This document shows positions 21,001 through 61,153 of a DNA stretch of 64,000 bases, one piece after another. The DNA comes from a virus. The position numbers were made by a program, and so were the translations under genes. The stretch covers positions 1 through 64,000 of the IMG/VR virus record IMGVR_UViG_3300025645_000062, one strand, 5' to 3'. A model generated the notes under the pieces. The model was not told the DNA's origin, ran no database searches, and saw only the letters and a program-made list of their open reading frames with translations. How positions within the stretch are numbered: position 1 is the first letter of the stretch; every line of letters begins with the position of its first letter.

Positions 21001-24000
21001 AATCAGATACTTTAATAGTTTTGCTTGCTTGTAAATAAATTTTATCTAAGTGTCTTCTTTGGTAGTATTTATTATCTCTACCTATAGAAAGAACACCTGT
21101 AAGTTGTGAAAGTATTTCTACTTCAGCATCAGTTAATGCTCCTTTTGCAGAAAGTATACGTAACTTGGAAGTAGAATCTTTTAGCACATTAGTGTATTTA
21201 ATAAATTCTTTATAAGCTTTGGTATCTGATTTCTTAATACCACCTATATCATCATTATTATCAATAAGCTCTTTAATACCTATTTCTAACCCAGATATAG
21301 CATTCATTACTTTGTCTCGTAATTGTGCTAAACGATTAGTTTCTTCAGTTGTGTAAGATCTATCTGTAAATCTGTTATTTAATCTGTCTTCAGAGTTAAG
21401 TGGAACATCTGTTATAGGAAAAGTTTTATCCGTAGTTTTGACAATATTAGATGTTTTACCCATTTCAAACATAAATGCTTGCAATAAAGTTACACGGTTA
21501 ACACTATTATCATTGTTTTTAGGGAAATCTGCAGGATTAATCCAACTACCTACAAGACTGCTTAATAGTTTTGTTAAACTTTGTAATATTGCACCAATAA
21601 TACCTACAACTTCAGTACCCACTTGATCAGTAATATCTTCCCGTAAATAGGAGTCAACACTCATATCTTCGGGGTTCTGGTTCAAATGCGCAGCATACTC
21701 TTGTATAAGCATATACTCTTTACGTACCCTATCTGAGTCAGTTTTACTAACTGTATTATTAATATCTTGTAATACTAACCATAAATTATGTAGGGTAGGT
21801 TTACTCACTAGAGTATCTTCAGACAGAGTTAAAAACTTTTGCATATCTTGTTTGAATGCAGCGTACAGTTTATTCTGTTTAGACGTACCGTTCCCCCCAA
21901 TTATGTTATTAAGTCCTCCAACCATATTTGCATGAGTTAGCTCATGTTGCATAGCAGTCATAGCTTCAGCAATTGAGATACCCTCAGGAATATATATAAT
22001 TGGTGTAAAAGTAATTAAACCTGTTTTTGCATTAGGAGCACTTTTTTCAATAACATGCCTACCTTTAATATTGGTTGTTAAACCGTACTTAGTAAAATAT
22101 TTTTTATCTACAATACGAATTACCTGACCATTTAAATTACTTTTAGTTATATTAGAATAATCATACTCTTTATTCTTCCTGTTCCATACAGGGTTTACTT
22201 GAAATAAAGTAGTATTTAATGAAGCAGGTAAACCTGAATCTTTATCAATTTTAGCTCCAAGGTTTACACGGTTAAGGTTAAAGTCTTTTAAAACTTCAGT
22301 AGTAATCTTTATTTCTGTAAAACCTTTTTCTTTACTAAAATCTTTAAAGGTACCTTTTGAAAGAATAATACCTGCAAGCTTTTCCATCATACTTACTTTA
22401 TGAGATTTTTCAGATTTCTCAGGAACGTTTTCTAAAATAGGCACTTCAAGACTTAAACTGTCTTGAGTAGCAATACGGTTTTTAAATGATTTTTCAAACT
22501 CAACTATTTCAGGTAGTGTTTTAAGTTTGTCTATTTTAGCATCACTTAACCCTGATTCTTGTTGCATCTGGCTCCAGTTAAAAGAACCATCTGAGTTAAT
22601 AAGAATAGCCGTACCATCAATACCCGCTAACTGATGAACCTTAATACCTCCATCACTTTTTGCTACATAATCTAATCGTGAAATTTCACCTTGTTTAGCA
22701 GTTCTATTTAACTTCTGCTGTAAACGTTGTAAATGTTGGGCAATATCACCTGAACCAAGTAAATTAGTGTAATCTCCTGCTGTAGTTCTACCACCAAGTT
22801 CAGTACTTAACTCGTTTAAAAATTCAGCATAATCCGTTGTAAACTCCGCAGTACCACTTTCAAGTAATGAATTTAAACCTGTGATAATTACTTCCCCCTC
22901 AAAAAGAAGAGGCTTAGCGGAGGCTTCGAGAACACCTGTAAGTGTATCCGCTACTTCTTTAACTGGGTCAGCTTGCATAATCGTAAGTGTTTCAGCTAAA
23001 TTAGTAATAAAAGCACCAAGAACTGCCTCTGATCCAGAAGAAATATCTTGTGCATCATATACATTCAGATGTAAGGTGCCTGTAACGGCTTTCATTAGCT
23101 TTGTTGTTAATCTTTGCATCTCAGCATCAATTGAAATAATTCCGTTAGGGTTTGCTGTTACACCTGCTTCTTTAAGAGGGGCAGCACCTGTGTGAACATC
23201 TTCAGGTGTTTTTGCTAATATGTCCGACTCAGTATCCACACTAAATACAGGTATTGTTGTTCCTTGCTGCTGTTTACTATCTTGTGCTCTTGCACGTTTA
23301 TTAAGGAAAGTTAACCCCTCAATAGCTAAATCCATCTCAGGAAACATAGAAGATAAAGCTTGTTTAATTTTAGATAAGTCTTCTTTACTTAATGAAGCTG
23401 TTGGAGGTAGTTTTCTTTTCTTAATTACAGCCTTAGTTAGTTTTACTTGAGCCATGTTATATAACGCAACCATCGTACCTGTTGCCATAGTAACTTGATC
23501 AGTTACATCTTTCGAACGGTAAAGTACATCAGATATGGCTCTATCTATAGACTTACCTAAAGTTTCTTTTACATGTTTTGTAATATCTTCTTGTTGTTTA
23601 TCTGTAAGAGTGTAATTAGATAGTTTAACATCATCCATTACAGGCACTGAATTACCTTCCCAAAATACATCGTTCCAACCTTTTAATTGAATGCGTTCAG
23701 GTGAGTTAATAGGGGTACCTATAGCAGCAGATACATCCATATAAAACTTAGCAAGAAAACCCTCACCAGATTTAGCCCCGTAAATTAAACCTGATACAAG
23801 TGCTTTTAATGAACCACCATACACAGTAGATGTAACCCCTGCTTTAGAAGCATTACGTTCAAATATTTCACCAAAGCCAACAAAAGATACTTGGTCTTTT
23901 AAAAATGCCCATGCTTTAGCTGTATCATCAGACAGTTCATCATTAGCTTTCATATTTTTTAAGTTATTTGTAGCTTCACCTGAAATAGTCTGGTACATAT

Positions 24001-27000
24001 CCATCATTGCAGGGTCATGATGGGTATCTGTAGCATCTAGGCTATCTTTTAAACCACCCATAGCTAAAAGTCTTTTAAGGTCGTACCCTTTCGCATCTAC
24101 AATTCCCATACCATAAGCCCAATTACTATGAAATACCCCGTTAGTTTTACCATCTACTTCGATAGGTAAAGGTTTTTGAGTGTACCCATTAAAAATTGAA
24201 TCAAGTGCCTCAATATACTCAACTGTAGGAGCTTTATAGTTTAAACTTTCTTCTCTTTGCCATGCTAAAAACTCAGGAATAGTCTTAGCTTTACTTAACT
24301 TAATTTCTTTACCTAACAAAAATAACTTAGCAAAAGTTTCTTTAAGACTTATTTCGTTAGATTGTTTATCTACTTTTACACCTAAGCCTAAACCTAATGC
24401 CAACACATAATGTTTTAATGCACTAGTAGGGTTAGATTTGTAATTTTTAACTAACTTCGCCCTTGAACCATGGACTTTAATGTTTCCACGGTTAAAAGAA
24501 GTACGGACTAAAATACGGTGAAGTTTGTTTGCTTGGGGATTAACTTCCCCCTCAAAAAACTGTCTACCATTGGCAGAAAAAAATGATGAATAATATATTG
24601 GAACAGATTTCTTGTAGTAAGGTGACTTTTCGTTTGATGACTCTTCTTGTAAACGAATATACAGCGCATACGCACTTGTAAACTCAGCTTTATAACCTTC
24701 TTTTTTACCTATTTTAGCTAGTTGATCATTTACATTTAAAGGTAAAATTGTAGTCTCGACTTTATTAATTAAACGTGTACCTCCCAATATATCTATATCT
24801 TCTGGCTCATGTAAGTATTGTTCTACAAAAGCAGTAGCAGTTGCTTTTAAATCAGTCTTACCATCTACCTTTACAAGGACACTTTTAAGCATCAACTCAA
24901 ATTTAACATTATCTAAGTAAAATGGAGTACTTTCTGTAAGCTCAGCCATTTCTCTGGCCTTCACAGGTAAGTGTGAATAGTCTGTATTCGGTGGAGTACC
25001 TATATGGTTTAATCTATTTCGTTTAACACCATACTCTGCTTTAAGTATTTTAGTATCACCTTTTAATAGTAAAGAACTTAAATTTACTTCAGGGTTACGC
25101 GTATACCCATAATACGATTTATTATTATGTTTTACTGTAACCATATCAACACCTTTAGTATCACCAATCATACGTGTGACTGCAGAAGCTAAAAAAGTAT
25201 TTAAAGCAGGTAAATACTGGTTTTGGTCGTAAGCTTCAACTAGTTTTGTGTTACGGGCTACAGCACCACTAATTACACTATCTGGGATAAAAGTACCTTT
25301 ACCTGCAAAAGTAGATTGCAGCGAAGTATTACCTCTATCAATCTTTTCTACATACATTTTAAGCTGCTTACGTGGTAAGTATTTAGTGTGTCCAATATAT
25401 TCCATACCTTCAGCATAACTTAAAAACGAAGTCTGAATAAAATGTTCTGGTATGTTCCCATATTCATCTATAAGTAAAACTGAAACTCTACCCATATTTA
25501 CACTAGTATTTAGTGGTGTACTTTTAATAGCTTGATGTATGTTGTTTTCAAACTTAGTTTTAAACTGAGCATAGTCTTGAACCAGTGCCATTACATCCTC
25601 TACTAATACATCGTGCTTCTCAGCAAATTCAGCCATAGCTACAGTATTATCTGAAGTAAGATTAAGTATTGAAGACATATCCCATAAAGCAGACTCTTTA
25701 AATGAACCTAAAGAAGTTTTTAAAGGATTATCTTCTTTAAGTGAATTAAGTAATGCTTTGGCAGGATGGCCATCAGGCATAGTACGGATATCTTTAGCAA
25801 ATTTCTGTCTAAAAGATTCTTGAATAGCGGGTAAAGTTTTAATACCCAACCTTTTTTTACCTCCCCTTTTACCTACTAAACTTTCCTCAACTAAACTTCC
25901 TAGTGTAAAAATACTATCTTGGATATAAGCTTCAACAGTACTTTTTGCAGCGTCCTTAGAAAGAATATTAGTTTTTATTTCATCAGCAATTTGCTGAGAA
26001 ATACTTTTAGTAGACTTTGTTTCACCTCTTACAATTGCCTTAAGTACTGCAGGCTTCATACCTATAGCCACAGCTAAAATATCAAGGTTATATTTAGCAA
26101 TTGCAATAGTTTCAGCTATTGAATTAATACGTGAATATTGACTATGTGTAGCAGCTTCCATGTCATAAGAAGTTTTACCTTCTTTTGCCATACGAGCAGA
26201 TTGCTGTTTAGCAACTTTAACTTCTGTAGTTTTTTGGCTAACTTCTTCTGCTACAAAATACTTACTTCTTACTTTATTAAATAAAAGAATACTATTTTTA
26301 AGGGCTTCCTCTAATTCTTTAACTTGAGTAACTAACTCAACTCGCTCAAGTTTAATTTCATTTAAATTAGATTTAACTTCTAACTGTTTAGCTGCTACAT
26401 CTTCTCTATTTGTTTTAGATGTTACTTTAGCTCTAGCTGCTTCACCTTTTAGTTTTTTACGTAAAGTATTATTAACTACATATGCTTTAGACAGCTGTCC
26501 AAGACGTTTACGTAACGTGCGAATTTCTTGGTACATGGAAGCAAACGCTCTGCGTTTGGTTATATACTTTTTTTGCTCAACTACTGAACCGCTTATTCTT
26601 TCCAATGGTTCAGGTAGTAAATCATTCATAGCTGTAAAGCTCTCAGCAGCAGCCTCAGAAGCTATTACCTCTTCTGCGGCTAATTGCTTAACTTCTTCAG
26701 TTAACACCTCAGAATACGCTTTTAAAGCTTCAGTTGTACGGTCTTCTTGCGAAGATACAAAAGGAGCGTCTGCTAAAAATAATTTATAAGCATCAAACCA
26801 GATAGACTTATTAGCATCTGTAAGTAGCCCTGATTTAACAATATTAGCATATATAGTACCTTTACTGCTTAAAGGTATATTCTTCATCTTACCTAAGATA
26901 AGTTTAAGTATTTCTTCTGCAGGCATGTTTTTAATAACATTTTCTTCAACACCTGTTATTTCACTGATACCCGTAACTACTGCAGGAGTAGCTAAGACTG

Positions 27001-30000
27001 AACCAGATAAAATATCTGTAGGAGTTAAAGTATGTAATACTTTTGTTTTTACTTTAAATACCTCTTGTTTAGTAGGTGCAATCATACTCATATTTGCTTG
27101 TATAAGTTGACTAAGTGCTGTGACACTTTTACTTGAAACACCTAAAAGTTCTACAATGTGTTTTACAAAAGTATCTAAAAAACTAGAGTTTAGTTTGTTA
27201 ACTTTAACTGAACCAAGATAGTTAATAAAATCAGTGTTACTCATTCCCATTACAATAAATTCTTGAATATTATTTAATGGATAAGCCCACTTAATTGCAT
27301 CTTCTTTAGATGCTTGTTTTTTAACTTGTTTTAATAAATTTGTAATTTGGGTATAAAATACTTTTTGCTCAGGTGTATTACTTTCTTTCGGTTTAGCAGA
27401 ATTCCATAAAAAACTATGAAGCAACTCGTGTAAGATAACCTCACCTTTTAACTTGGGGTCAGTTATGTTATTAGCAATATATACTTTACCTTCCGTTGCT
27501 TTATAAGTACCTAGTGCATGGGAGCCATCAGAATGTTTTATAAGTTTATCTGAGTTAGGTTCTACATAAATAACTTCAGTATCTTTAGGTAAAGCGTTTT
27601 TTAATGCTTCTGCAACTTCAGTTAAGTTACCATACACACCTGACTCAATTTGTACCGTAAGGATTTCAGCACCATTAGTAACAACAGATGTAGAAGCTTT
27701 ATTATCTTCTTTAATCTTTGACCATACACCTGAACCAGAATCTACTTCCTCGTAACCTTTAAAAGACAAGTATTGAGCTAATCTACCTTCTCCTGTCTTA
27801 TTATAACTTCTGTTTCGTGCTTCAAAATTGTCTGCAATAATAGTGGCACCTGCCTCTACTGCTTTATTAACTTCCTTAGCTGTAGCTGATTGAGCACTAA
27901 ACTTCTTACCATTCTTCCCATTTACACTTACAAAAACAGTATCGTCTGCAGAATAAACACCTGTATTAGCTTTTTCTCCCCAAGCTAATCGGTATTCTTC
28001 TGTAGACGTATCTTTGGCACCAAAGCCAATAAATTTATTAGCTTGGTCAGACTTCCTTTGGTCTTTATTAAGTAACTCTGTAGTTAACCTACCTGAACCA
28101 GCGAGCACTACCTTAGTAGGTTCAGCTTTCTTTCTTAACACCACCTGTGCATCATGCTGTATAACATTACCATCATTGTCAGTGAGTGTGACTGTAGCAG
28201 TTATACGACCATCACTTCCTTCACGAATTTCACTAATTTTAGTTATAACAGTATCTTCAGGCAAAGAATCGAGGGCTACTTCATACCCTGTTCCTTCAAG
28301 ACCTACAACAATACCAACAGAAGTGATATCCCTTTGTGTTGTGGGTTTGTCACTTCTATTAGAAGAGAATGTAGTGGTAGTAATACCATCATCACTTACT
28401 TTAGTATTCTTAAAGAATGTACGGGTTCTACCCTTTCTATCCGTAGAGGTAAGAGTTCCCATTGGAGACTCTGTAGTAGGTTTAGTAACAACTTCTTCTT
28501 CAACCTTCTTACCTTCAGGGTCAAGGATGTCCCTAGCCAGTGTATCAATTTGATTTAAGGTATCTAAATCCTTTGAAACTGCATCAATAGTGCGTTGCAG
28601 TCTACCCATACCTTTATAAGTAAAGCTTTTTGAACCTTTACCCATTGCACCAGATGTATCCCATACTGCTTTACCTAATGAAGGGTCAGCTTTTAAACCT
28701 TCAAGAGCTGCTAGCTTACCAGTCTGGTTAGACTGTAAATAGCCTATAAACAAGTCATAAACAGCTTCTGCTTCCTGAGTATTACCTTTACCTAAAGCTG
28801 TAAGAAATGTGTCTACATGTTTACCTAAAGTACGATCACCTTTACTACCAAATAGTTCAGCACGTACTCTTTCAGTACCTGTAAGCGGTTTACCTTTAGT
28901 ATCTACTTCATTGGCTCTAAGTGTTGAGACAAACTCAAATAACTTTTGCTTATCAACATCTTGGGTAGATTGAGCAAATAGATCAAGAGTTTCCCCTGAC
29001 AACTGGCTTAGTTTATCTTCAGAATATAAAACTACATCTCCTATAGTCTCGATTAAAGCATCTACTTGTGCTGTTGAACTATCCTGACCTAGTTCAGTCT
29101 TTTGCTTTATTAAAGACATTACTAACTGTTCTGTATCACCTACTTCAATATTATTAATTACTTTAGCTACAGTGTTATAGTCAGCTTTAGCACTATCTAA
29201 AGGGTTAAGAGTCGTAGCTAAGTTAGCAATTGTTTGCGCATCTTTTTCAGATAAATCCGAATTACTAAGTAACTTAACACCTGCCACAGTTAAATCCGTG
29301 TTGTCAGTTTGTGCTTTGTAAAGTGACTGACCAATAGCTTCAAAATCTTTACCATCCTTACGTAAGTTTTCTTCAGATAAATCTGTATTCAAAGTATGTT
29401 CTAGTACTGAATTAACATAAGATTTTACCTCAGCATTATCTGTTTCATAATTTGAATAAGTATCAATAACTTCCTTAGTTCTACTAGCTACTTCTACCTC
29501 ATCTTCTACAGGCGCTCTTTCAGGAGCATACCTTTCTATTACATTATTCGGTTCAGCTTTAGAAGTACCTGCCTCTGGTTCCTTATTTTTTATTGTAGCG
29601 TTGTTATTTTCTTCTTGCAGTTCTTGTACAGCTTCAGCTAATTCTGTAGAATTTTGATCAACACGAGCTTGAGAAAGTTTTTCAACTGCTTTAGTAACAG
29701 TTCTTCCTGCACCTGCCATTACACCACCAGATAAACCACCTGCTGCAAGACCTGCACCTGCAGATTCACCTACACCTTCAAGTGCATCTTTAGACTCATC
29801 ACCTTCTTTAACTTGTATATTTGAAACAAGTTGTCCTGCACCCGATTGAACTGTTTCTTCAACTGCTTCAACTGCTGCGCCTTTAGCGGTTGATTTAATT
29901 ATACCTTTTTTAACACCTTTATTTAATACGTTACCAAACGTATCTGCAGCACCTGTAGCTTTACCTACTAAAGCAGCAATTGAACCAGAAATAATTGCTG

Positions 30001-30940
30001 TGTCACGAGCACCTTCTTCAGCAAATTGTAAACGTACTTCTTCAAAAGTAGCGTTAGGCATCTTCTTAGTTAATTCTTGAAAGTCACTAGACTGTTTAAG
30101 TACTTCTGGAGTAAGGTTTAATATTGCATCCCGAGTTTGAATAGCATTATTGGTACCCTCGGACACACCTGTATAAACTGCACCTGTTATTCCACCTGCT
30201 TTAGTTGCAGCTTTTTGCCCTGCTTTAGCTATAAAAGCTTTTGAAGCAGCACTTTCAGCCACACTTTTACCTAACTTTTTCTTTATTCCCGACTTAACTG
30301 CAACTTTTGCAGCTCCACCAATAATACCACCAGTTGCAGCCATCGCAACTAGGTCAGCAGAACTCTTAGCAGCCTCAGAAACAGCAGCTAATGGATTAGT
30401 TATGTAATCACCAACCGTACCAAAGAACTCGCTTAGAGACTCTCCTGCGGAGATGTTACCATCACCCATTTGTATAGCTTTGCGTTCTGCAGCAGCATTA
30501 ACAATATTTGCTTTAGCTTGACGTAAATCCATTGAATATTCTTTTTCGGATTCTTCAGCTTCAGCTTGCTGAGTAGCAACACCTTCCCAACCAAATTTAG
30601 ATAAAGCATCTGAATTAACTGCATCCCCTATTAAACCTGTTACACCATAACCTGTTTGAGCAAGCCTATCACCAAATGCAATACCAAGGTCAGTACCTAA
30701 ATCTTCCATGGTTCCTTGGTTTCTTGTTGCCTTAAATATTCTCTGTTGGTTGAGAAAGTTTCTCATGTCTAGTGAATTAGCCGTAGGATTTTGAACCATG
30801 AACTCCTCAAGAGGAGCTACTAGTTGAGCATCGGTAAAAGCAGTTTGTTTTTTAAGATGAGCTTGACCCACCGCCTCTGCTTTCGCAGAAGTGATGTTTA
30901 AATTCATTGTGCGTTGGAAGAGATTGTCAGGTGTAACCAT
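18041..30940 (-). CDS. Giant virion RNA polymerase, N4 gp50-like, 4299 aa
   Basis: The T7-type polymerase motifs are readable and correctly spaced: SANGR (R2126, TxxGR motif), EVDGKTNG (D2263, motif A), R2362-x3-K2366 to Y2374-G2375 (motif B), and VYDAQD (D2629, motif C). Spacings of 137, 103 and 263 are close to those of N4 vRNAP (about 135, 111 and 281). The long flanks should form virion and injection domains. Two HExxH motifs occur: HELLH at 1171-1175 and HELTH at 2999-3003. A Gly/Ala-rich stretch near residues 390-420 could insert in membranes. The protein is packaged and injected, then transcribes early genes from hairpin promoters. It is about 800 residues longer than the N4 protein, the excess mostly N-terminal. 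Confidence 0.95.
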   Translation of the reverse strand: MVTPDNLFQRTMNLNITSAKAEAVGQAHLKKQTAFTDAQLVAPLEEFMVQNPTANSLDMRNFLNQQRIFKATRNQGTMEDLGTDLGIAFGDRLAQTGYGVTGLIGDAVNSDALSKFGWEGVATQQAEAEESEKEYSMDLRQAKANIVNAAAERKAIQMGDGNISAGESLSEFFGTVGDYITNPLAAVSEAAKSSADLVAMAATGGIIGGAAKVAVKSGIKKKLGKSVAESAASKAFIAKAGQKAATKAGGITGAVYTGVSEGTNNAIQTRDAILNLTPEVLKQSSDFQELTKKMPNATFEEVRLQFAEEGARDTAIISGSIAALVGKATGAADTFGNVLNKGVKKGIIKSTAKGAAVEAVEETVQSGAGQLVSNIQVKEGDESKDALEGVGESAGAGLAAGGLSGGVMAGAGRTVTKAVEKLSQARVDQNSTELAEAVQELQEENNNATIKNKEPEAGTSKAEPNNVIERYAPERAPVEDEVEVASRTKEVIDTYSNYETDNAEVKSYVNSVLEHTLNTDLSEENLRKDGKDFEAIGQSLYKAQTDNTDLTVAGVKLLSNSDLSEKDAQTIANLATTLNPLDSAKADYNTVAKVINNIEVGDTEQLVMSLIKQKTELGQDSSTAQVDALIETIGDVVLYSEDKLSQLSGETLDLFAQSTQDVDKQKLFEFVSTLRANEVDTKGKPLTGTERVRAELFGSKGDRTLGKHVDTFLTALGKGNTQEAEAVYDLFIGYLQSNQTGKLAALEGLKADPSLGKAVWDTSGAMGKGSKSFTYKGMGRLQRTIDAVSKDLDTLNQIDTLARDILDPEGKKVEEEVVTKPTTESPMGTLTSTDRKGRTRTFFKNTKVSDDGITTTTFSSNRSDKPTTQRDITSVGIVVGLEGTGYEVALDSLPEDTVITKISEIREGSDGRITATVTLTDNDGNVIQHDAQVVLRKKAEPTKVVLAGSGRLTTELLNKDQRKSDQANKFIGFGAKDTSTEEYRLAWGEKANTGVYSADDTVFVSVNGKNGKKFSAQSATAKEVNKAVEAGATIIADNFEARNRSYNKTGEGRLAQYLSFKGYEEVDSGSGVWSKIKEDNKASTSVVTNGAEILTVQIESGVYGNLTEVAEALKNALPKDTEVIYVEPNSDKLIKHSDGSHALGTYKATEGKVYIANNITDPKLKGEVILHELLHSFLWNSAKPKESNTPEQKVFYTQITNLLKQVKKQASKEDAIKWAYPLNNIQEFIVMGMSNTDFINYLGSVKVNKLNSSFLDTFVKHIVELLGVSSKSVTALSQLIQANMSMIAPTKQEVFKVKTKVLHTLTPTDILSGSVLATPAVVTGISEITGVEENVIKNMPAEEILKLILGKMKNIPLSSKGTIYANIVKSGLLTDANKSIWFDAYKLFLADAPFVSSQEDRTTEALKAYSEVLTEEVKQLAAEEVIASEAAAESFTAMNDLLPEPLERISGSVVEQKKYITKRRAFASMYQEIRTLRKRLGQLSKAYVVNNTLRKKLKGEAARAKVTSKTNREDVAAKQLEVKSNLNEIKLERVELVTQVKELEEALKNSILLFNKVRSKYFVAEEVSQKTTEVKVAKQQSARMAKEGKTSYDMEAATHSQYSRINSIAETIAIAKYNLDILAVAIGMKPAVLKAIVRGETKSTKSISQQIADEIKTNILSKDAAKSTVEAYIQDSIFTLGSLVEESLVGKRGGKKRLGIKTLPAIQESFRQKFAKDIRTMPDGHPAKALLNSLKEDNPLKTSLGSFKESALWDMSSILNLTSDNTVAMAEFAEKHDVLVEDVMALVQDYAQFKTKFENNIHQAIKSTPLNTSVNMGRVSVLLIDEYGNIPEHFIQTSFLSYAEGMEYIGHTKYLPRKQLKMYVEKIDRGNTSLQSTFAGKGTFIPDSVISGAVARNTKLVEAYDQNQYLPALNTFLASAVTRMIGDTKGVDMVTVKHNNKSYYGYTRNPEVNLSSLLLKGDTKILKAEYGVKRNRLNHIGTPPNTDYSHLPVKAREMAELTESTPFYLDNVKFELMLKSVLVKVDGKTDLKATATAFVEQYLHEPEDIDILGGTRLINKVETTILPLNVNDQLAKIGKKEGYKAEFTSAYALYIRLQEESSNEKSPYYKKSVPIYYSSFFSANGRQFFEGEVNPQANKLHRILVRTSFNRGNIKVHGSRAKLVKNYKSNPTSALKHYVLALGLGLGVKVDKQSNEISLKETFAKLFLLGKEIKLSKAKTIPEFLAWQREESLNYKAPTVEYIEALDSIFNGYTQKPLPIEVDGKTNGVFHSNWAYGMGIVDAKGYDLKRLLAMGGLKDSLDATDTHHDPAMMDMYQTISGEATNNLKNMKANDELSDDTAKAWAFLKDQVSFVGFGEIFERNASKAGVTSTVYGGSLKALVSGLIYGAKSGEGFLAKFYMDVSAAIGTPINSPERIQLKGWNDVFWEGNSVPVMDDVKLSNYTLTDKQQEDITKHVKETLGKSIDRAISDVLYRSKDVTDQVTMATGTMVALYNMAQVKLTKAVIKKRKLPPTASLSKEDLSKIKQALSSMFPEMDLAIEGLTFLNKRARAQDSKQQQGTTIPVFSVDTESDILAKTPEDVHTGAAPLKEAGVTANPNGIISIDAEMQRLTTKLMKAVTGTLHLNVYDAQDISSGSEAVLGAFITNLAETLTIMQADPVKEVADTLTGVLEASAKPLLFEGEVIITGLNSLLESGTAEFTTDYAEFLNELSTELGGRTTAGDYTNLLGSGDIAQHLQRLQQKLNRTAKQGEISRLDYVAKSDGGIKVHQLAGIDGTAILINSDGSFNWSQMQQESGLSDAKIDKLKTLPEIVEFEKSFKNRIATQDSLSLEVPILENVPEKSEKSHKVSMMEKLAGIILSKGTFKDFSKEKGFTEIKITTEVLKDFNLNRVNLGAKIDKDSGLPASLNTTLFQVNPVWNRKNKEYDYSNITKSNLNGQVIRIVDKKYFTKYGLTTNIKGRHVIEKSAPNAKTGLITFTPIIYIPEGISIAEAMTAMQHELTHANMVGGLNNIIGGNGTSKQNKLYAAFKQDMQKFLTLSEDTLVSKPTLHNLWLVLQDINNTVSKTDSDRVRKEYMLIQEYAAHLNQNPEDMSVDSYLREDITDQVGTEVVGIIGAILQSLTKLLSSLVGSWINPADFPKNNDNSVNRVTLLQAFMFEMGKTSNIVKTTDKTFPITDVPLNSEDRLNNRFTDRSYTTEETNRLAQLRDKVMNAISGLEIGIKELIDNNDDIGGIKKSDTKAYKEFIKYTNVLKDSTSKLRILSAKGALTDAEVEILSQLTGVLSIGRDNKYYQRRHLDKIYLQASKTIKVSDLVPASIKESDPSYVTHLRMAADVHTLLFKTDDVNRVARFAAYSEVSPELKAALKTVDIKEATPTHSNWFEKVRQVIRDAVVKSANALSGIRAGDASLQTQMTIDNMFLSKKLFDNKFNNKLVNYERKLDASFQFVGKQFAKTARVVISKISGKEIPQGLSVSDMILDYTPRGEGETTVPGFWRNNLLEMLKRTQSHSVKVDRRVDIGKSKVDAVHTGTARGIKNILTDIFSKTLTKDESKAIVEGDIKADLGSLIEEHGMSVKDVQMLLEDASTRNTRINILQNQILNTTVPNVTKAHQTMMINEAKALGYRLVQGGATRGMGYPNAYSISRLTGTSAEVEYSPTLDSTLVPMLDQLAALSAIQYMDSGTREILAELYDSQGDAFNVIHAQIKANQTDLVNRYGLGILNQVPKGNTPDITDVNTNIRIVSKSQLAEFPSHEVLHEVAAPHSDEKHYVIYNEVGGAVPYVSGAISLIDSSISLAAKGAVRSEGLNLWDSGEITSNNAKAYTAAMSSKIREPSPIDKGGYVPNLNQSGQIVSYKYELPRAEYTRLAGVSGDWSDMLSEYAGRLQAEKLGTFNNVELVKELYAEYTSSSNKKAWVRVSVDSPNRQVREAWQLAPQEMKDTAKTYFGEPVIYVHRDDINQALGFREVSIKALFRPKGFDEETYMRTVTELMKKIFHPKLINILRKAELGTQEVVSIGKDLVVVKSVVVPAANLMSNINQLVGRGVPVEDVYSNGLLGVNAKREYDTISERLYILQAKLKIVTDVEEKAKLNSEFVLLKQSRESNPLFRLISEEGMNPSVIEELGEESKRDGFRKKFLENLSAKFEDALPENNAFVNVGKEVAITQDSSVYKLLNEGLELGDFVSKFILYTHLTTQEGMSHEDAIEQARSEFINYNRNQNPLMDYANKLGVTPFFKYFMRKHPVMWATIKKSPSRTIVQILAAIQLGVPSLFETSLINKDLVAATGTVNFLGMASDAHLLL

Positions 30941-55377: not shown

Positions 55378-56053
55378 CTACGGCTTCCCCTTCAATTACT
55401 ACTTTCTGGTGCGCCACATCTTTGGCCGTCATAGCTCCTGACTCTAACATACTCAAATGCTGCGCAGCCAAATTAGCCGTAAGAACCTGCAATTCATCAG
55501 TAATGCTCGTATCCTTAACCGTAACATCTAACTCAATCTTCTTGGTTTCAGGCGGCTTCAGATGCGTCAACAAACTATTAGCAGCATCCTGCTGCACCTT
55601 CTCACTCTGCGCCCCTACCATCAACCTAACTTGTGTATTAATCGCTGCCTGCAAATGATGCGCATTCATAATATGCACAGGAATAAGGGTCTGCTCCAGT
55701 ATTTTATTAACCAAAGAGGTACCATTATACATAGCAACATGAGCAGAAATATCCTTCTCACTCTTATTATTCGCCACCAAACGCGCATACCTAGCAGGAA
55801 ACACCTTAGTCCAAGACTGTATATTGCTATCCCCCATACTCTTATAAGTAACATACTTCACCGCATCAATATAACTCTCCATCTTAAACTTGCCATCTTT
55901 CAACACAGAAGTATAACTAAGCATATTCTCGATAGCCTGCTCACGCACATCTGGATCACCAATACTCTGATTAATACTATCCATTAACTCCGTATTAACT
56001 TTCTTGCTCCATTGCTTAGGCAAAGCTTTCTTAAACGTTTCTTCTGTAAACAT
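55358..56053 (-). CDS. N4 gp69-like protein, possible small terminase, 231 aa
   Basis: It is the first late gene in transcription order and overlaps the terminase. The protein is helical and polar, with EEFKKALPKQWSKKVNTELM-like and LTHLKPPETKKIELDV segments. It has no motif I can name; a small-terminase role is suggested by position only. Base use differs from neighbours: the coding strand is G-rich and the plus strand C-rich, so a long antisense frame (55562-55987) is also open. It has an AAGGTGTAA ribosome site. Confidence 0.7.
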   Translation of the reverse strand: MFTEETFKKALPKQWSKKVNTELMDSINQSIGDPDVREQAIENMLSYTSVLKDGKFKMESYIDAVKYVTYKSMGDSNIQSWTKVFPARYARLVANNKSEKDISAHVAMYNGTSLVNKILEQTLIPVHIMNAHHLQAAINTQVRLMVGAQSEKVQQDAANSLLTHLKPPETKKIELDVTVKDTSITDELQVLTANLAAQHLSMLESGAMTAKDVAHQKVVIEGEAVDVTPED

Positions 56054-56326
56054 GAATTACACCTTAGGTATTCCTTAGTATTTCCCCAAGTATACACAGA
56101 ACCAGAGGTAATAAGTAACATCTACTTGAAATATCCTGTGTAAGCTCGCCTATACAGTAAAATATGCTCAGAATTTATAGAAGTGAATCGATATACCAAA
56201 TACATTTAAAGTCCCTTATATAGCCTGTGAGGAACGATTTCGCCTATAGGGAAAATAGCTAGAGTATTACACATGCAGTATTCACACCTGCAGACCTTCA
56301 AAATCTAAATACCCCCCCCCTATCTT
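56054..56326. other. Late-early junction, likely genome-end region
   Basis: No gene is visible in this divergent gap. In N4-like phages the genome ends, with direct terminal repeats, lie between the gp69-type late gene and the first early gene. On the minus strand a TATACT at 56089-56094 could serve as the -10 of a leftward promoter, but the -35 is weak. The stretch also holds TGCAG/CTGCA repeats around 56275-56292 and a run of nine C at 56312-56320 just before the first hairpin promoter. Confidence 0.4.
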
Positions 56327-56354
56327 GTTTACTGCGTAAACGAAGATCTATGAG
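56327..56354 (+). promoter_or_regulatory. Candidate virion-polymerase hairpin promoter 1
   Basis: GTTTAC and GTAAAC form a 6-bp stem around the 3-nt loop TGC (56327-56341), followed by GAAGATCTATGAG. N4 virion polymerase promoters are hairpins with 5-7 bp stems and 3-nt loops, with the start about 11-12 bases after the loop; that predicts initiation near 56345. The same design occurs at 56914 with a different stem sequence. It precedes the first early gene. Confidence 0.75.
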
Positions 56355-56389
56355 CAATTTCGCTCTCCCCTACCCTGCAGGTACTACCT

Positions 56390-56641
56390 ATGTTCAAAAC
56401 TACATATAAAGCTGTGAAGCTCCCTCTTAATTCTTTACATTTCCAACTCAATAAGGCGATTGATCAGCAATCAGCCAAGCAAGAGATCCTTTCTCAAAAT
56501 GCTGAGCAAGAACTCAGTATTAAGGTAAACCAATGGTTTGCTGATGCCGCATCAATAGAAGCAGAGGCCAAAGTGGCCATCACTACCTGTCCCAAAACTG
56601 CAGCCTTCATGACTGCAAGAGCCAATGCCAAAGCGAAGTAA
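56390..56641 (+). CDS. First early protein, 83 aa
   Basis: It lies 36 bases after the first hairpin promoter motif and is ended by a stem-loop at 56648. It is basic at the N-terminus and helical with Gln/Ala/Glu-rich parts (SAKQEILSQNAEQELSIKVN). I see no family. As the first gene exposed to the injected polymerase it is a candidate host-takeover protein. The ribosome site is weak (GCAGGTACTACCT). Confidence 0.65.
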   Translation: MFKTTYKAVKLPLNSLHFQLNKAIDQQSAKQEILSQNAEQELSIKVNQWFADAASIEAEAKVAITTCPKTAAFMTARANAKAK

Positions 56642-56647
56642 TTAATA

Positions 56648-56667
56648 ACCTACCCTTCGGGGTAGGT
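56648..56667 (+). terminator. UUCG-capped stem-loop after first early gene
   Basis: ACCTACCC and GGGTAGGT form a perfect 8-bp stem capped by TTCG, seven bases after the stop. Only a short AACTTT follows, so it may be a terminator or an RNA end stabiliser. Confidence 0.65.
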
Positions 56668-56682
56668 AACTTTAAAACTTAC

Positions 56683-56833
56683 CCACACCTAACACACACA
56701 AGCCTAGACACTAGCCCTGAGACTCAAGACTCAAGACTAGTGATTCAAGACTTAACCACACCTAACACCAGAGATATCCAAGATATCCGTATAGGTAAGA
56801 GAGTCAGGACTGCTGGAGTATACTGTTAACAGT
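56683..56833. repeat. Non-coding early spacer with short repeats
   Basis: The 56642-56976 gap has no gene. It holds a 13-bp direct repeat CCACACCTAACAC (56683-56695 and 56756-56768), three copies of a TCAAGACT-like unit (56723-56751), a doubled GATATCC (about 56773-56788), and a 12-bp palindrome ACTGTTAACAGT (56822-56833). The second hairpin promoter follows. These could be sites for replication, packaging or terminal-repeat functions; nothing decides between them. Confidence 0.5.
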
Positions 56834-56913
56834 TACACACAGCTACCTTACAAGCCTCTCGCTTAACCTAAGCCTTCCCTAATACCTAACGTACACGCTG
56901 CACTGTTTAGCTT

Positions 56914-56941
56914 TCTGACTGCGTCAGAGAAGCTCTATGAG
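56914..56941 (+). promoter_or_regulatory. Candidate virion-polymerase hairpin promoter 2
   Basis: TCTGAC and GTCAGA form a 6-bp stem around loop TGC (56914-56928), followed by GAAGCTCTATGAG. Compared with 56327, four of six stem pairs differ but pairing is kept, while the loop and downstream motif are the same. This covariation supports a hairpin recognised as structure. Initiation is predicted near 56932. It serves the genes from 56977. Confidence 0.75.
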
Positions 56942-56976
56942 TATACTTCCATACTCTTTAAGTCTAGGAGACTAAC

Positions 56977-57168
56977 ATGCATTTATATCAATCATGGGAC
57001 GATTCGTATTATCTCACTGAGGATTTTGACGGAACAGAGGGGCATAAGCTCCAGTTAGTGGGTACAACCACAGTTGCGGAAATACACGCAATTGTAGGTT
57101 ACAAAGAAACAATTCAAGTTTATCGTGCAATGCACGGTATGCATTCCTCAATTGAGGTGTTCATATGA
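56977..57168 (+). CDS. Early hypothetical protein, 63 aa
   Basis: The first gene after hairpin promoter 2, with TCTAGGAG upstream as ribosome site. Acidic N-terminal part with many Tyr, Asp and Trp (YQSWDDSYYLTEDFDG), then a beta-strand-like end. Its stop overlaps the next start (ATGA). Function unknown. Confidence 0.7.
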   Translation: MHLYQSWDDSYYLTEDFDGTEGHKLQLVGTTTVAEIHAIVGYKETIQVYRAMHGMHSSIEVFI

Positions 57169-57455
57169 ATATGTTGAAAATTGAAAGTTCTTACTTTAAA
57201 GCACTTTCTACAGGGTCTTATCACGCTGTATTACGTGCAACTAAAGGAGAAAACACCATACATACCGTCTTTGACTCGGAAGGAGACGTAAGTGGTTTTA
57301 ATATAAACAAAAAGTATTTTGATCTAGACTGGTACCACGACAAAGTAGTTTCTCCTGATTGGGCTGAAAAACAGTGGACTCCACTAGCGAGGAATCTAGT
57401 ACAACTAGTTTGGGATGAAAACGAGAAAAGAAGAAAAATACATTATAAAGATTAA
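57165..57455 (+). CDS. Early hypothetical protein, 96 aa
   Basis: It overlaps the previous gene by four bases. Mixed beta and helix content with several Trp (WYHDKVVSPDWAEKQW) and a basic end (KRRKIHYKD). No family is recognised. A strong stem-loop follows its stop. Confidence 0.7.
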   Translation: MNMLKIESSYFKALSTGSYHAVLRATKGENTIHTVFDSEGDVSGFNINKKYFDLDWYHDKVVSPDWAEKQWTPLARNLVQLVWDENEKRRKIHYKD

Positions 57456-57466
57456 TGTATTTAATA

Positions 57467-57492
57467 GCGTGAGGCGCACTCGTGCCTCGCGC
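57467..57492 (+). terminator. Eleven-base-pair stem-loop in early region
   Basis: GCGTGAGGCGC pairs with GTGCCTCGCGC (two G-T pairs) around an ACTC loop. There is no T-run behind it. It ends the 56977-57455 pair or protects the RNA; CCTATGAGG just after it resembles the motif after the hairpin promoters. Confidence 0.5.
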
Positions 57493-57563
57493 ACCCTATG
57501 AGGATTATCCTCAACATGAACACCGAGCACTTTCGCTCAAATATTATCGTCTTGGAGACAACT

Positions 57564-58052
57564 ATGAAAACTTTAACTAACGAACAATTTATGGCTTTAT
57601 CAAATACTGATCAAGTGTCCTTCTTTAAAGAAGGTGGGAAGTTAATTGCAGATACTGCTGCTACTTCAGTAGGTATCCCAACTTCGGATGTGGAAGACAT
57701 CTTTGCACATGCGCCAGTGAGTGCTCCTGTAGTGACCAGTGATTTTGATGTTGTAGGCGATGCAGTCTACATGAACATTAACGTTGATATCCTTGGTCAA
57801 TCATTCAGACTTAAATCTGTAAAATTAACAGAGAAACGTCAATGCATGGATGGTTGGGATAAAGAAGCTAAAACTTGGAAAGACGATAACGCTGACGTTA
57901 TGAGTCTTATTGAAATGGTACGTGAGCATGGTTCTAACCTTGTTAACGAGCATGTTGAATCAACTGTTAGATTTGGGAAAGCAGGTGAGAAGAACACTGC
58001 CAAGCGTGATCCTCTTGCAGCTTTGTTAAAAGCTCAAGCTACAACCCTATAA
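57564..58052 (+). CDS. Early hypothetical protein, 162 aa
   Basis: The ATG at 57564 has TTGGAG before it; an in-frame start at 57498 would add 22 codons without a good site. N-terminal helix, then a beta-rich part (DAVYMNINVDILGQSFRLKSVKL), an aromatic CMDGWDKEAKTW segment and a basic end. By place it matches one of the small N4 genes before RNAP1. Function unknown. Confidence 0.75.
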   Translation: MKTLTNEQFMALSNTDQVSFFKEGGKLIADTAATSVGIPTSDVEDIFAHAPVSAPVVTSDFDVVGDAVYMNINVDILGQSFRLKSVKLTEKRQCMDGWDKEAKTWKDDNADVMSLIEMVREHGSNLVNEHVESTVRFGKAGEKNTAKRDPLAALLKAQATTL

Positions 58053-58059
58053 CCCACAG

Positions 58060-58090
58060 GAACCAATGAGCATTAGCTTGTTGGTTCTTT
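58060..58090 (+). terminator. Stem-loop after the 162-aa early gene
   Basis: GAACCAA and TTGGTTC form a 7-bp stem with a 14-nt loop, followed by TTTAA. It is a weak terminator or attenuator before the next early gene. Confidence 0.45.
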
Positions 58091-58110
58091 AACCCATATT
58101 GGAGATAGAA

Positions 58111-58443
58111 ATGACATTAAATGAAGCATTAAATAAAGGTCGTAAAGATAGAGTTGTAATCCTACATAGTAATGTACGTACGTTCAAACGTAACCCAGTT
58201 ATAACTTGTACAGACGGATATAGTATATCTATCCAATGTGGTGTAAATATGTACTGCAAACCGCGGGAGGATATATTAGATGTGGGAGCTTATACAGAAT
58301 TTGAGTTAGGTTTTCCTACACGACTTGATTCACTGCTTGATGATTACGCAGAAGAATTAGACACAACTCTAACAATATTCCCATATGTGCCTCGTCAAGT
58401 AGTTGAAGAGTTAATTGCAAAGCACGGAGGTATCACAGAATAA
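58111..58443 (+). CDS. Early hypothetical protein, 110 aa
   Basis: I start at the ATG at 58111 behind GGAGATAGAA; a TTG at 58099 overlaps this site. The protein has beta-strand-like parts with Cys (ITCTDGYSISIQCGVNMYC) and an acidic C-terminal half (DSLLDDYAEELDTTLTIF). It sits directly before RNAP1, and its ribosome site resembles that of RNAP1, so the genes may be expressed together. Confidence 0.7.
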   Translation: MTLNEALNKGRKDRVVILHSNVRTFKRNPVITCTDGYSISIQCGVNMYCKPREDILDVGAYTEFELGFPTRLDSLLDDYAEELDTTLTIFPYVPRQVVEELIAKHGGITE

Positions 58444-58465
58444 CTTATGTTTATCCCACATGACG

Positions 58466-58485
58466 AGCCTCGTAGAGGCTTTGTT
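58466..58485 (+). terminator. Stem-loop with 3-nt loop before RNAP1 gene
   Basis: AGCCTC and GAGGCT flank a GTA loop, followed by TTGTT. It could be a terminator. The 3-nt loop also resembles a hairpin promoter, but the GAAGnTCTATGAG motif is missing. Confidence 0.5.
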
Positions 58486-58521
58486 AATGTGTATTGTTTA
58501 ACTATTTAGGAGATAGAAATT

Positions 58522-59454
58522 ATGTTTATGTACGAGCAACAAATACGGAACGAACGAAAGTTCGCTAAAGAAAACAAGGATCAAGTATTGCTAAATCATA
58601 AAGACACTCTTATGAAGCCTTGCCTAGCTTATTTTGAGGACTTGATGAGCAAACCTGTGCCATTTACAAATGATGCAAATGAACTTCGTAAAGACCTCAT
58701 TGAAATTATGCCAGCAGTTTATAGTATGAATGCCAAAAACGTTATTTGGCGCATTCTTTCAACTGTTATATTGGATAGACAGATTACGCTTCAAGCTGTA
58801 TTAGGTATGTATTTTGAAAGTATTGATGTAGACATGCCTTATCGTAAAGGTAGAGTTATCGAACCTTTCATAGATGCTGTATTGGCAAGCCCTTACGTTG
58901 AATTAAAACAAATGGGAAAGTACTTACATCTTGTGTGTAACCAGAACATTAATTTAGATGTATCTAATTATGCGTATGTACTGCCTTCATTAACAAATGA
59001 ACCAGTGTTAACTAACAAAGGTGCAGGGTATGAAACTACTCCTTTCCACGTTATTACAGGTGGTAAGTTAAAACAACATGACAACGAGTTATGCTTAGAC
59101 CATATCAATCGGTTGAATGCTGTTAATTACACAGCTGATACTCGTATTATGGAATTCACTACACCAACCTTTAGTACTAAACCTAAGTACTTGGAAAAAG
59201 TAAGTAGGTACGAGACAGAAGTTGAAGTAGAAAGTAGACGTAAACAGTTTAATTTGTGGAAAGATCAACTACCTCAAAAACTTGAAGTACTTGAAGAGAC
59301 AGGTAATAAGTTTCATTTCAAAAATAGATACTGTATTCGTGGTAGAACTTATGTCAAAGCATGGCATTTAGATTACATCGGAAACAAGTTCATTAGAGCA
59401 CTTGTCAATACCTCTGTTAAAGAGAAAGTTGAAGGTGCAAATAAATACTTATAA
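58522..59454 (+). CDS. RNA polymerase subunit 1, N4 RNAP1 (gp15)-like, 310 aa
   Basis: It corresponds to the N-terminal part of a T7-like polymerase split into two proteins. The TxxGR motif appears as CIRGRTYV with R273-G-R275, followed by LDYIGNKFIRALV as in T7 (NPQGNDMTKGLL). The frame ends 40 residues later, and motifs A-C are in the next gene. N4 RNAP1 is about 270 aa. With RNAP2 it transcribes the middle genes. The ATG at 58522 has GGAG ahead. Confidence 0.87.
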   Translation: MFMYEQQIRNERKFAKENKDQVLLNHKDTLMKPCLAYFEDLMSKPVPFTNDANELRKDLIEIMPAVYSMNAKNVIWRILSTVILDRQITLQAVLGMYFESIDVDMPYRKGRVIEPFIDAVLASPYVELKQMGKYLHLVCNQNINLDVSNYAYVLPSLTNEPVLTNKGAGYETTPFHVITGGKLKQHDNELCLDHINRLNAVNYTADTRIMEFTTPTFSTKPKYLEKVSRYETEVEVESRRKQFNLWKDQLPQKLEVLEETGNKFHFKNRYCIRGRTYVKAWHLDYIGNKFIRALVNTSVKEKVEGANKYL

Positions 59455-59465
59455 GGAATAAAATT

Positions 59466-60707
59466 ATGTATATGTTTAGCGGTTTTGAATGGTTGTTAAT
59501 CGACCTAGCAAGTAGATTTGGTAAAGATAAAGATACTTATATTGAACGTATCCAGTGGGCTGAAGAGTTACTTCCTTTACTTAACGTAGAGACAGAAAGC
59601 CAGCTCAAAGCTAACCTTGAACCATGGGTTGATAATGCTGATGATAAGCCTCATTTTGTAGGTGCTGCTTTAGCAATATGGGATACTATTCAAAACAGTA
59701 CTTCTAATTGGATGGTGTCACAAGATAGTGCCTCAAGTGGAGCACAGTTAATGTCCTGTATGACTAAGTGCCATACGGGTATGTCTAACACAGGTGTACT
59801 AGGTACTGATGTACCTGACTTGTACACAACTGTTAATGATAAGATGGGTGAAAACGGTTCTAAGTTACCTCGTAAAGTTCTTAAGCAGGGTATGATACCT
59901 CATATGTACGCTTCTACTGTTTCACCTAAACGTATCTTTGCAGAAAGTTATCCTAACTTTCTTAGAGCCTATGGTGAAACTGTACCTAGAGCACAAATCT
60001 TATCTGATCTACTTGTAGATGCATGGGACAGTAATGCCACAGAACATGTGGTAACTGCACCTGATGGATTTGTAGCTGTCATGCCTGTTATTGTACAAAA
60101 ACATAAAATCATACCTTTTAAAGACCATTCATATAAGTACGTTTACAGTGCAAAAGGTACTAAACCTAAAGGAAAAGCTAAAGGTACCAAAGCATTATCT
60201 GCAAATACAACTCATACGTATGATGCATATATCTTAAGGGAACTTAATCGTAGATGTAACTATTCGTACGTACAGGTTACAGCTGCACTGAATGCACTTG
60301 AGAACCCTAAATTAGGAAAAGCAAATCAATGTAAAGCAGTTAAATTGAAAGAGCTTCAGAAGCTTTCAGAAGAGTTTAACCAAGTATCAGTTGTAGCTTT
60401 AGAATACATTGATATAAATACTGCTGGATGTGTATCAGAAAACTACAGGAACCAGTTAATAGAAATACTCGAACAAATGTTACTTTCAGATTCATTTGAA
60501 ATTAAGAATGTTCATGATGATTTCGCTTGTTTACCTAATTATGTTTCTCATATGAAGTTTATGTACAACTTACTTCTTAAAGAAACTTACCTAGGTAATT
60601 GGATATATACTGTTCTCGAAAAGTTAACTGGTAAAGCTTACCCTGTATCAAAAATTGATATGGATATAGCTGATCAAATACTTGATGCACCTTATTCAGT
60701 CTCTTAA
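59466..60707 (+). CDS. RNA polymerase subunit 2, N4 RNAP2 (gp16)-like, 413 aa
   Basis: It carries the catalytic half: motif A SQDSASSGAQ (D87), motif B R136-x3-K140 to Y148, followed by Ala where T7 has Gly, and motif C NVHDDFACLP (H350, D351). N4 RNAP2 is about 404 aa. It begins eleven bases after RNAP1 with AAGGAATAAA as ribosome site. Together the two should be the phage polymerase for middle genes, such as 3544-18001. Confidence 0.9.
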   Translation: MYMFSGFEWLLIDLASRFGKDKDTYIERIQWAEELLPLLNVETESQLKANLEPWVDNADDKPHFVGAALAIWDTIQNSTSNWMVSQDSASSGAQLMSCMTKCHTGMSNTGVLGTDVPDLYTTVNDKMGENGSKLPRKVLKQGMIPHMYASTVSPKRIFAESYPNFLRAYGETVPRAQILSDLLVDAWDSNATEHVVTAPDGFVAVMPVIVQKHKIIPFKDHSYKYVYSAKGTKPKGKAKGTKALSANTTHTYDAYILRELNRRCNYSYVQVTAALNALENPKLGKANQCKAVKLKELQKLSEEFNQVSVVALEYIDINTAGCVSENYRNQLIEILEQMLLSDSFEIKNVHDDFACLPNYVSHMKFMYNLLLKETYLGNWIYTVLEKLTGKAYPVSKIDMDIADQILDAPYSVS

Positions 60708-60723
60708 TTAATACACGTTGCGT

Positions 60724-60738
60724 GCTCCCTTCGGGAGC
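60724..60738 (+). terminator. Stem-loop after RNAP2
   Basis: GCTCCC and GGGAGC flank a TTC loop 16 bases after the RNAP2 stop, with only a short TTAG behind. It is probably a transcript end or RNA stabiliser for the early unit. Confidence 0.55.
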
Positions 60739-60946
60739 TTAGCTAGAAGTTAACTTTAAATAAATAAGGAATTGCGTATGGTGTACTGAAAAGAAGGTAT
60801 TCTAAGCATACAAGGTCAATCAGATGCCTATCATGATTGATTAACGAGACAATGAATAGGCAAGTTAACTCACCTAAATACTAACATCAAAAAAAACCCA
60901 CTTTTATACTATACTTAGCCTAAGTGCTAAACCAAGGAATTATATT
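60739..60946. other. Non-coding gap after the RNAP genes
   Basis: No gene is supported in this stretch. It includes an AT-rich segment with TATACTATACTT around 60908-60919, which may be a -10-like or middle promoter for the small genes that follow. Confidence 0.35.
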
Positions 60947-61153
60947 ATGTTTATACGTCAAGAAAATATCATTATTAACACTCAAGTTTTACCTATCATT
61001 ACTTCTCAAGGTAGTGATATCCGTTTCCAAAGAGATACTAATCTCCATTCTCCGTACACCAAATTAAAATTTACCAACATTATTGAAGCTGATAAAGCTT
61101 TCAATTTAATATATTCTGAACTGGCTTCAGGCAGTTTAGTAGTATTACTTTAG
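60947..61153 (+). CDS. Hypothetical protein, 68 aa
   Basis: ATG with AAGGAATTATATT ahead. The first half has beta-strand-like parts (ENIIINTQVLPIITSQG), and the last part is a hydrophobic helix (FNLIYSELASGSLVVLL). Not recognised. Confidence 0.65.
   Translation: MFIRQENIIINTQVLPIITSQGSDIRFQRDTNLHSPYTKLKFTNIIEADKAFNLIYSELASGSLVVLL

Follow-up and report, generated by a model that had tools for sequence, protein, structure and literature searches.

The window analysed here, a stretch of 64,000 nucleotides (positions 1 to 64,000 of virus record IMGVR_UViG_3300025645_000062, which has 68,274 bases), contains two short inverted repeats placed upstream of an early operon that ends in genes for an N4-type RNAPII. 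The features of the locus, together with the polymerase gene that bears on them, are as follows (template positions are numbered from the predicted start, +1).

56312–56320, plus strand: run of nine C residues (C9), 6 nt before hairpin 1; the window's only C or G run of at least 8.
56327–56341, minus strand (template, putatively the active strand): predicted promoter hairpin 1, GTTTAC-GCA-GTAAAC, with a C-GNA-G loop; read on the plus strand as GTTTAC-TGC-GTAAAC, with loop TGC at 56333–56335 and heptamer ACTGCGT at 56331–56337.
56342–56354, plus strand: shared motif GAAGATCTATGAG, covering −3 to +10 of promoter 1; +1 predicted at the G at 56345 (N4 spacing rule).
56352–56365, plus strand: predicted leader RNA hairpin 1, GAGC-AATTTC-GCTC, beginning at +8.
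56390–56641, plus strand: first early ORF, 83 aa, no family match.
56914–56928, minus strand (template, putatively the active strand): predicted promoter hairpin 2, TCTGAC-GCA-GTCAGA; read on the plus strand as TCTGAC-TGC-GTCAGA, with loop TGC at 56920–56922 and heptamer ACTGCGT at 56918–56924.
56929–56941, plus strand: shared motif GAAGCTCTATGAG, covering −3 to +10 of promoter 2; +1 predicted at the G at 56932 (N4 spacing rule).
56939–56956, plus strand: predicted leader RNA hairpin 2, GAGTAT-ACTTCC-ATACTC, beginning at +8.
56977–57168, plus strand: early ORF, 63 aa, no family match; heads the operon leading to RNAPII.
58522–59454, plus strand: homologue of the first subunit of N4 RNAPII, gp15-like (phrog_2166, E 1e-28).
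59466–60707, plus strand: homologue of the second subunit of N4 RNAPII, gp16-like (phrog_2051, E 1.5e-80).
18041–30940, minus strand: giant virion RNA polymerase (vRNAP), 4299 aa (phrog_2206, E 2e-212), the presumed reader of the hairpins.

Because a giant virion RNA polymerase is encoded together with a two-subunit RNAPII downstream of the hairpins, the phage is, by its gene content, a member of the Schitoviridae. The 4299-aa ORF also matches the solved enzyme of N4, and in an alignment of 20 such proteins residues D559, R666, K670, Y678 and D951 of N4 mini-vRNAP, which we take to be the T7-type catalytic residues, are identical in the window protein. This protein is approximately 800 aa longer than that of N4, and its polymerase domain spans roughly residues 1600–2860. 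An N-terminal stretch, 219–428, is additionally matched by a DarB-like antirestriction family, and one of the profile matches (27065–27622) is out of order. Judged by sequence comparison, the phage is far from any named record; its RNAPII stands at 37% to that of Vibrio phage K479, and no near DNA match was found for the polymerase gene.

The two hairpins have much the form that the sequence-only reading had given them. Both consist of a 6-bp stem and a 3-nt loop, which reads TGC on the plus strand in each case, and both are followed at the same distance by the same motif, GAAG[A/C]TCTATGAG, which abuts the stems directly. Both fold as DNA hairpins in DNA-folding calculations, although the folding energies do not separate the template from the non-template loops. 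The stems had been said to differ at four of six pairs while still pairing; the pairing is retained, with every change compensatory, and the number of differing pairs is three (G-C/T-A, T-A/C-G and T-A/G-C). That three pairs have changed on both sides and still pair argues for structure. What stays constant is the loop with the two stem pairs next to it (heptamer ACTGCGT), and one more T-A pair is common in position to both stems, with a different neighbouring base.

The combination is also rare. The 13-mer of the shared motif occurs exactly twice across the 68,274-base record; allowing up to two mismatches yields a single extra match in the whole record, at 2253, without such a hairpin. The window has five C-TNC-G hairpins with stems of at least 6 bp, where dinucleotide shuffles give 0.24 ± 0.52. 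A same-loop pair with at least 11 of 13 matching downstream bases arose in none of 300 shuffles, and at least two such hairpins within a 2.5-kb early leader in none of 2,000 (mean 0.0045). The hairpin pair with its motif is not a product of chance. As had been proposed, each copy lies just ahead of an early gene, and the distance from the predicted start to the ATG of the next ORF is exactly 45 nt at both (56345 to 56390; 56932 to 56977). The shared motif itself includes ATGAG, and in the two leaders short ORFs start there, at 56350 (19 codons) and 56937 (12 codons), perhaps by chance.

Other hairpins in the record do not qualify as promoters of this kind. That at 60730 is a C(TTCG)G hairpin of the terminator type, that at 41691 sits inside a tail-region gene, and that at 58474 is a minus-strand hairpin within a gap; no convincing third C-TNC-G hairpin with a stem of at least 4 bp was found in 55001–68274. 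A strong hairpin, ACCTACCCTTCGGGGTAGGT, lies at 56648–56667, 3′ of the first early ORF, and is likely a terminator between two early units.

In N4, the active hairpin sits on the template strand, extrusion requires a C:G closing pair with G at the 5′ and A at the 3′ side of the loop, and the enzyme reads template −11 A/G, −10 G, −8 G and +1 C (PMC4496689). Our scanner, when applied to N4 as a positive control, returned P1, P2 and P3 with their +1 G, and nothing else of this class in 13 kb. The window sites share with P1–P3 the template loop C-GNA-G (here C-GCA-G, which agrees with the N4 extrusion needs), a 3-nt loop on a stem within the 5–7 bp range, and a conserved heptamer centred on −11 within a variable outer stem. 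They also share template G at −10 (plus-strand C at 56335 and 56922) and template C at +1, 11 nt from the loop centre (plus-strand G at 56345 and 56932), and the location ahead of early genes leading to RNAPII in a phage that also encodes vRNAP. The acting hairpin had been placed on the plus strand, with the loop TGC; by analogy with N4, it would instead be the template (minus) strand that acts, with the loop GCA in a C-GNA-G context.

The window sites differ from those of N4 in four ways. Both have template C at −11 and A at −8, where N4 has A/G and G, respectively; the start region is GATCTATGAG/GCTCTATGAG rather than GG; the leader RNA hairpin begins at +8 rather than +1; and two strong sites are found rather than three. 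Since template −11 C and −8 A are unlike N4, the window polymerase would be expected to read another code.

The survey of early regions covered 20 named phages and 80 contigs recovered through RNAPII (about 100 early regions); an alignment search yielded the 80 loci, while a single-protein search yielded none. Counted through RNAPII, the 80 contigs contain 146 C-TNC-G hairpins that point along early transcription and 36 that point against it; near-duplicate contigs inflate the survey numbers somewhat and do not explain the strand bias. The relatives have up to five or six such hairpins across the early region, mostly directed along early transcription. When sites of the same phage are compared in pairs (134 in all), 88 pairs have the same −11 letter, against a permutation mean of 42 and maximum of 63, and 77 have the same −8 letter (mean 42, maximum 70); the within-phage excess is weaker at control stem positions. 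Consistent sets are present in 33 phages, of which 18 have C at the non-template centre, 10 have A, four have G (the window, PG11, L144 and L149) and one has T. With a pyrimidine at template −11 in 14 of the 33, the −11 purine looks like a feature of the N4 clade rather than of the family, and −8 A also occurs in PG11, in 2.130.O and at most K479 sites. G is enriched at +1 to +4 over the survey set. Given the strand bias and the within-phage agreement of letters, the window fits a family in which the scaffold is constant and the reading letters change. Of the suggestion that the loop is a code specific to this phage group, the part that stands is therefore that concerning its centre (−11), which varies between phages, as does −8; the T and C of TNC belong to the family scaffold.

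The TGC loop is found elsewhere in L149 (twice), L144 (twice) and Vibrio phage PG11 (three times). The three PG11 hairpins are in the sense direction and share with the window the ACTGCGT core, template −11 C and −8 A, and a C9 run, which lies 25 nt ahead of the first hairpin; they differ in the downstream sequence, which is unrelated, and in the start, which probably lies one base later, and they are unannotated in the PG11 record. Hairpin promoters were earlier predicted, likewise by position and shape, in Pseudomonas phages LIT1/LUZ7/PEV2 and in Pectobacterium phage CB1 and CB1-like phages (PMC3715699, PMC6027278); in our own scan LIT1 and LUZ7 differ in having TAC loops and template −11 T. 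In a review of family diversity, promoters are absent from the text (PMC7650795).

On the side of the polymerase, the contact residues K114, R119, W129, D901 and R904 of mini-vRNAP are present in those close relatives of N4 whose letters are −11 G and −8 G, and differ in several phages in which the letters are others (e.g., L149 at W129, DSS3phi2 at R904, and the window), in a comparison where the alignment is poor and relatedness confounds. A few surveyed records are unusual. L159 (record G005) has one TAA stop within the virion polymerase frame. In L029 and L069 (Alteromonas phage PT11-V19), the virion polymerase profile matches only very weakly (E 1e-10 over approximately 120 residues) and the early region has just one RNA polymerase ORF, of 670 aa; early transcription may thus differ there. 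An RNAPII homologue also lies at 195312–196544 of PQ898399.1 (Enterobacter phage SonariX, 248,734 bases), a record far larger than any N4-like genome, and may reflect a chimeric record or a transfer.

The same elements as in the window were found in only one contig (L009/L290), which is 99.7% identical to it. Scanning the collection for CTGCGNNNNNGAAGNTCTATGAG returned eight contigs, of which L009 carries both hairpins and the other seven are chance matches. A looser ACTGCGT-GAAG pattern returned 119 stretches, and in none of these did a TGC hairpin of 6 bp stand beside the motif. Among the relatives recovered together with their early region, the nearest are L292–L294 (recovered via terminase, approximately 60% terminase identity), and they have no C-TNC-G hairpin of at least 5 bp there. 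As these relatives do not have the longer hairpin and the sole match is 99.7% identical, conservation at orthologous sites is unsupported.

What L292–L294 do contain is a core, GC-TTC-GC or GC-TTT-GC, that is repeated and has GG after it at the spacing of a promoter. In L292, one such core comes right after CCCCCCCTATCTT, much as in the window, and at one site in this group the core is followed by a 10-bp RNA hairpin. Across 45 early regions without longer hairpins, GCTTCGC with GG at promoter distance occurs 20 times in the sense and three times in the antisense direction, a count that includes the near duplicates L292 and L293. Cores of either type with GG, where longer hairpins are missing, were seen in L292, L294, L117, L096, L099 and L084. 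In DNA chemistry, d(GCGAAGC), the template form of the core, is an unusually stable 2-bp mini-hairpin. The pattern suggests that the promoter stem can shrink to two pairs in some relatives.

The two window leaders are predicted to fold alike, each with a 6-nt loop on a stem that begins at +8 (−5.2 kcal/mol each). In the family, the mean predicted energy for the 22 nt from +1 is −3.55 kcal/mol, compared to about −1.2 further down, and a stem of at least 4 bp begins within +1 to +8 at 52% of sites (approximately 19–26% for shifted controls; 21% for the antisense set). An RNA hairpin at or just after the start is predicted in about half of 145 promoter-like sites, with the starts of these hairpins concentrated at +1 to +3. 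Because the window leaders fold alike from +8, the GAG at the end of the shared motif may be the foot of an RNA hairpin rather than a polymerase contact. The motif had been offered as part of the recognition code; beyond +1, it is probably not read by the polymerase.

The C9 run is a probable marker of the left-end/early leader. Sense-strand C runs of at least 8 upstream of RNAPII number 30, compared to two on the opposite strand and none in 683 kb downstream. The run mostly precedes the first promoter, as in N4 (C9; L014 32–40), PG11, L106, L111, L127 and the window. In the literature covered, which lies outside the original N4 papers, we found no paper that compares the letters at −11 and −8 across phages, and none that gives the C run or the RNA hairpin as a family feature.

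As inverted repeats between genes, the hairpins could instead act as RNA and be unrelated to the virion polymerase (e.g., by terminating transcription weakly, by marking sites of processing or by structuring the 5′ leader), and terminator-like hairpins of the C(UUCG)G type do occur nearby (56648–56667 and 60730). We consider this very unlikely, since neither hairpin is followed by a T-tract or appears in the terminator scan, the loop is of the class needed for N4 DNA hairpins rather than an RNA tetraloop, and site 1 precedes all early genes; moreover, the constant part is a loop-centred heptamer with a motif at fixed spacing. Even less weight is given to a role in replicating or packaging the DNA, or in forming its ends, close to the left end of the genome (e.g., as a binding site of terminase or a replication protein). 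Site 1 does lie in the gap that separates the early genes from the divergent genes on the terminase side, beside a C9 run that relatives also have near the left end, but site 2 is 590 bp further on, ahead of the second gene, and the hairpins of relatives, up to five or six of them, are spread through the early region, mostly in the sense direction, as promoters would be.

The early genes of many phages rely on host polymerase, and the elements could then be common promoters for host sigma-70 (or for RNAPII), or sites bound by a regulator, and their dyad symmetry would be incidental. This we regard as the least probable of the alternatives, because there is no sigma-70-like site near either hairpin, such matches in 56050–61000 (13) fall below the shuffled expectation (17.1 ± 4.6), and the compensatory changes in three stem pairs favour structure.

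Very probably, then, the phage's own virion RNA polymerase uses both elements as early promoters. This is in line with what had been suggested from the letters, and is now supported by the vRNAP gene, the early-operon context and the match to the P1–P3 scaffold and spacing; what was established directly also includes the sequence of the elements, their rarity and their recurrence in the family. Against it, the −11 purine and −8 G required in N4 are both missing from the window phage, and the recognition residues of its polymerase align poorly. Extrusion, SSB action, polymerase binding and the exact starts we infer by homology with N4. The hairpin on the template strand (6 bp, GCA loop closed by C-G, of the stable C-GNA-G class) would be kept, while that of the opposite strand would be melted by SSB; transcription from an N4-type promoter by vRNAP would be expected to depend on gyrase as well as SSB. 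The injected polymerase would dock on the template hairpin, read the bases at −11 and −8, and start at a G (56345 or 56932) that lies 11 nt away from the centre of the loop, leading into the plus-strand early genes, including RNAPII.

As far as comparison of sequences goes, the two sites are predicted promoters of the N4 type whose recognition code differs, and the phage that carries them is a divergent relative of N4. A broader proposal, to which we give about an even chance of being right, is that the Schitoviridae early promoter is modular, and basically combines an invariant extrudable C-GNA-G scaffold (2–8 bp stem), a swappable lineage code at −11 and −8 that is read by the matching polymerase, and an RNA hairpin at the transcript start, with the window carrying the code −11 C, −8 A. 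The hairpin promoter of N4 has the standing of a textbook oddity, and work on it has kept essentially to one phage. A divergent relative that keeps the scaffold under other letters, in a family whose letters hold within each phage and vary from one to the next, would make of this one structure a testable recognition code with matching polymerases, and could provide orthogonal pairs of single-stranded promoters and polymerases. The start-site RNA hairpins and the 2-bp mini-hairpins raise, in turn, the question of the minimal structure needed by this polymerase family.
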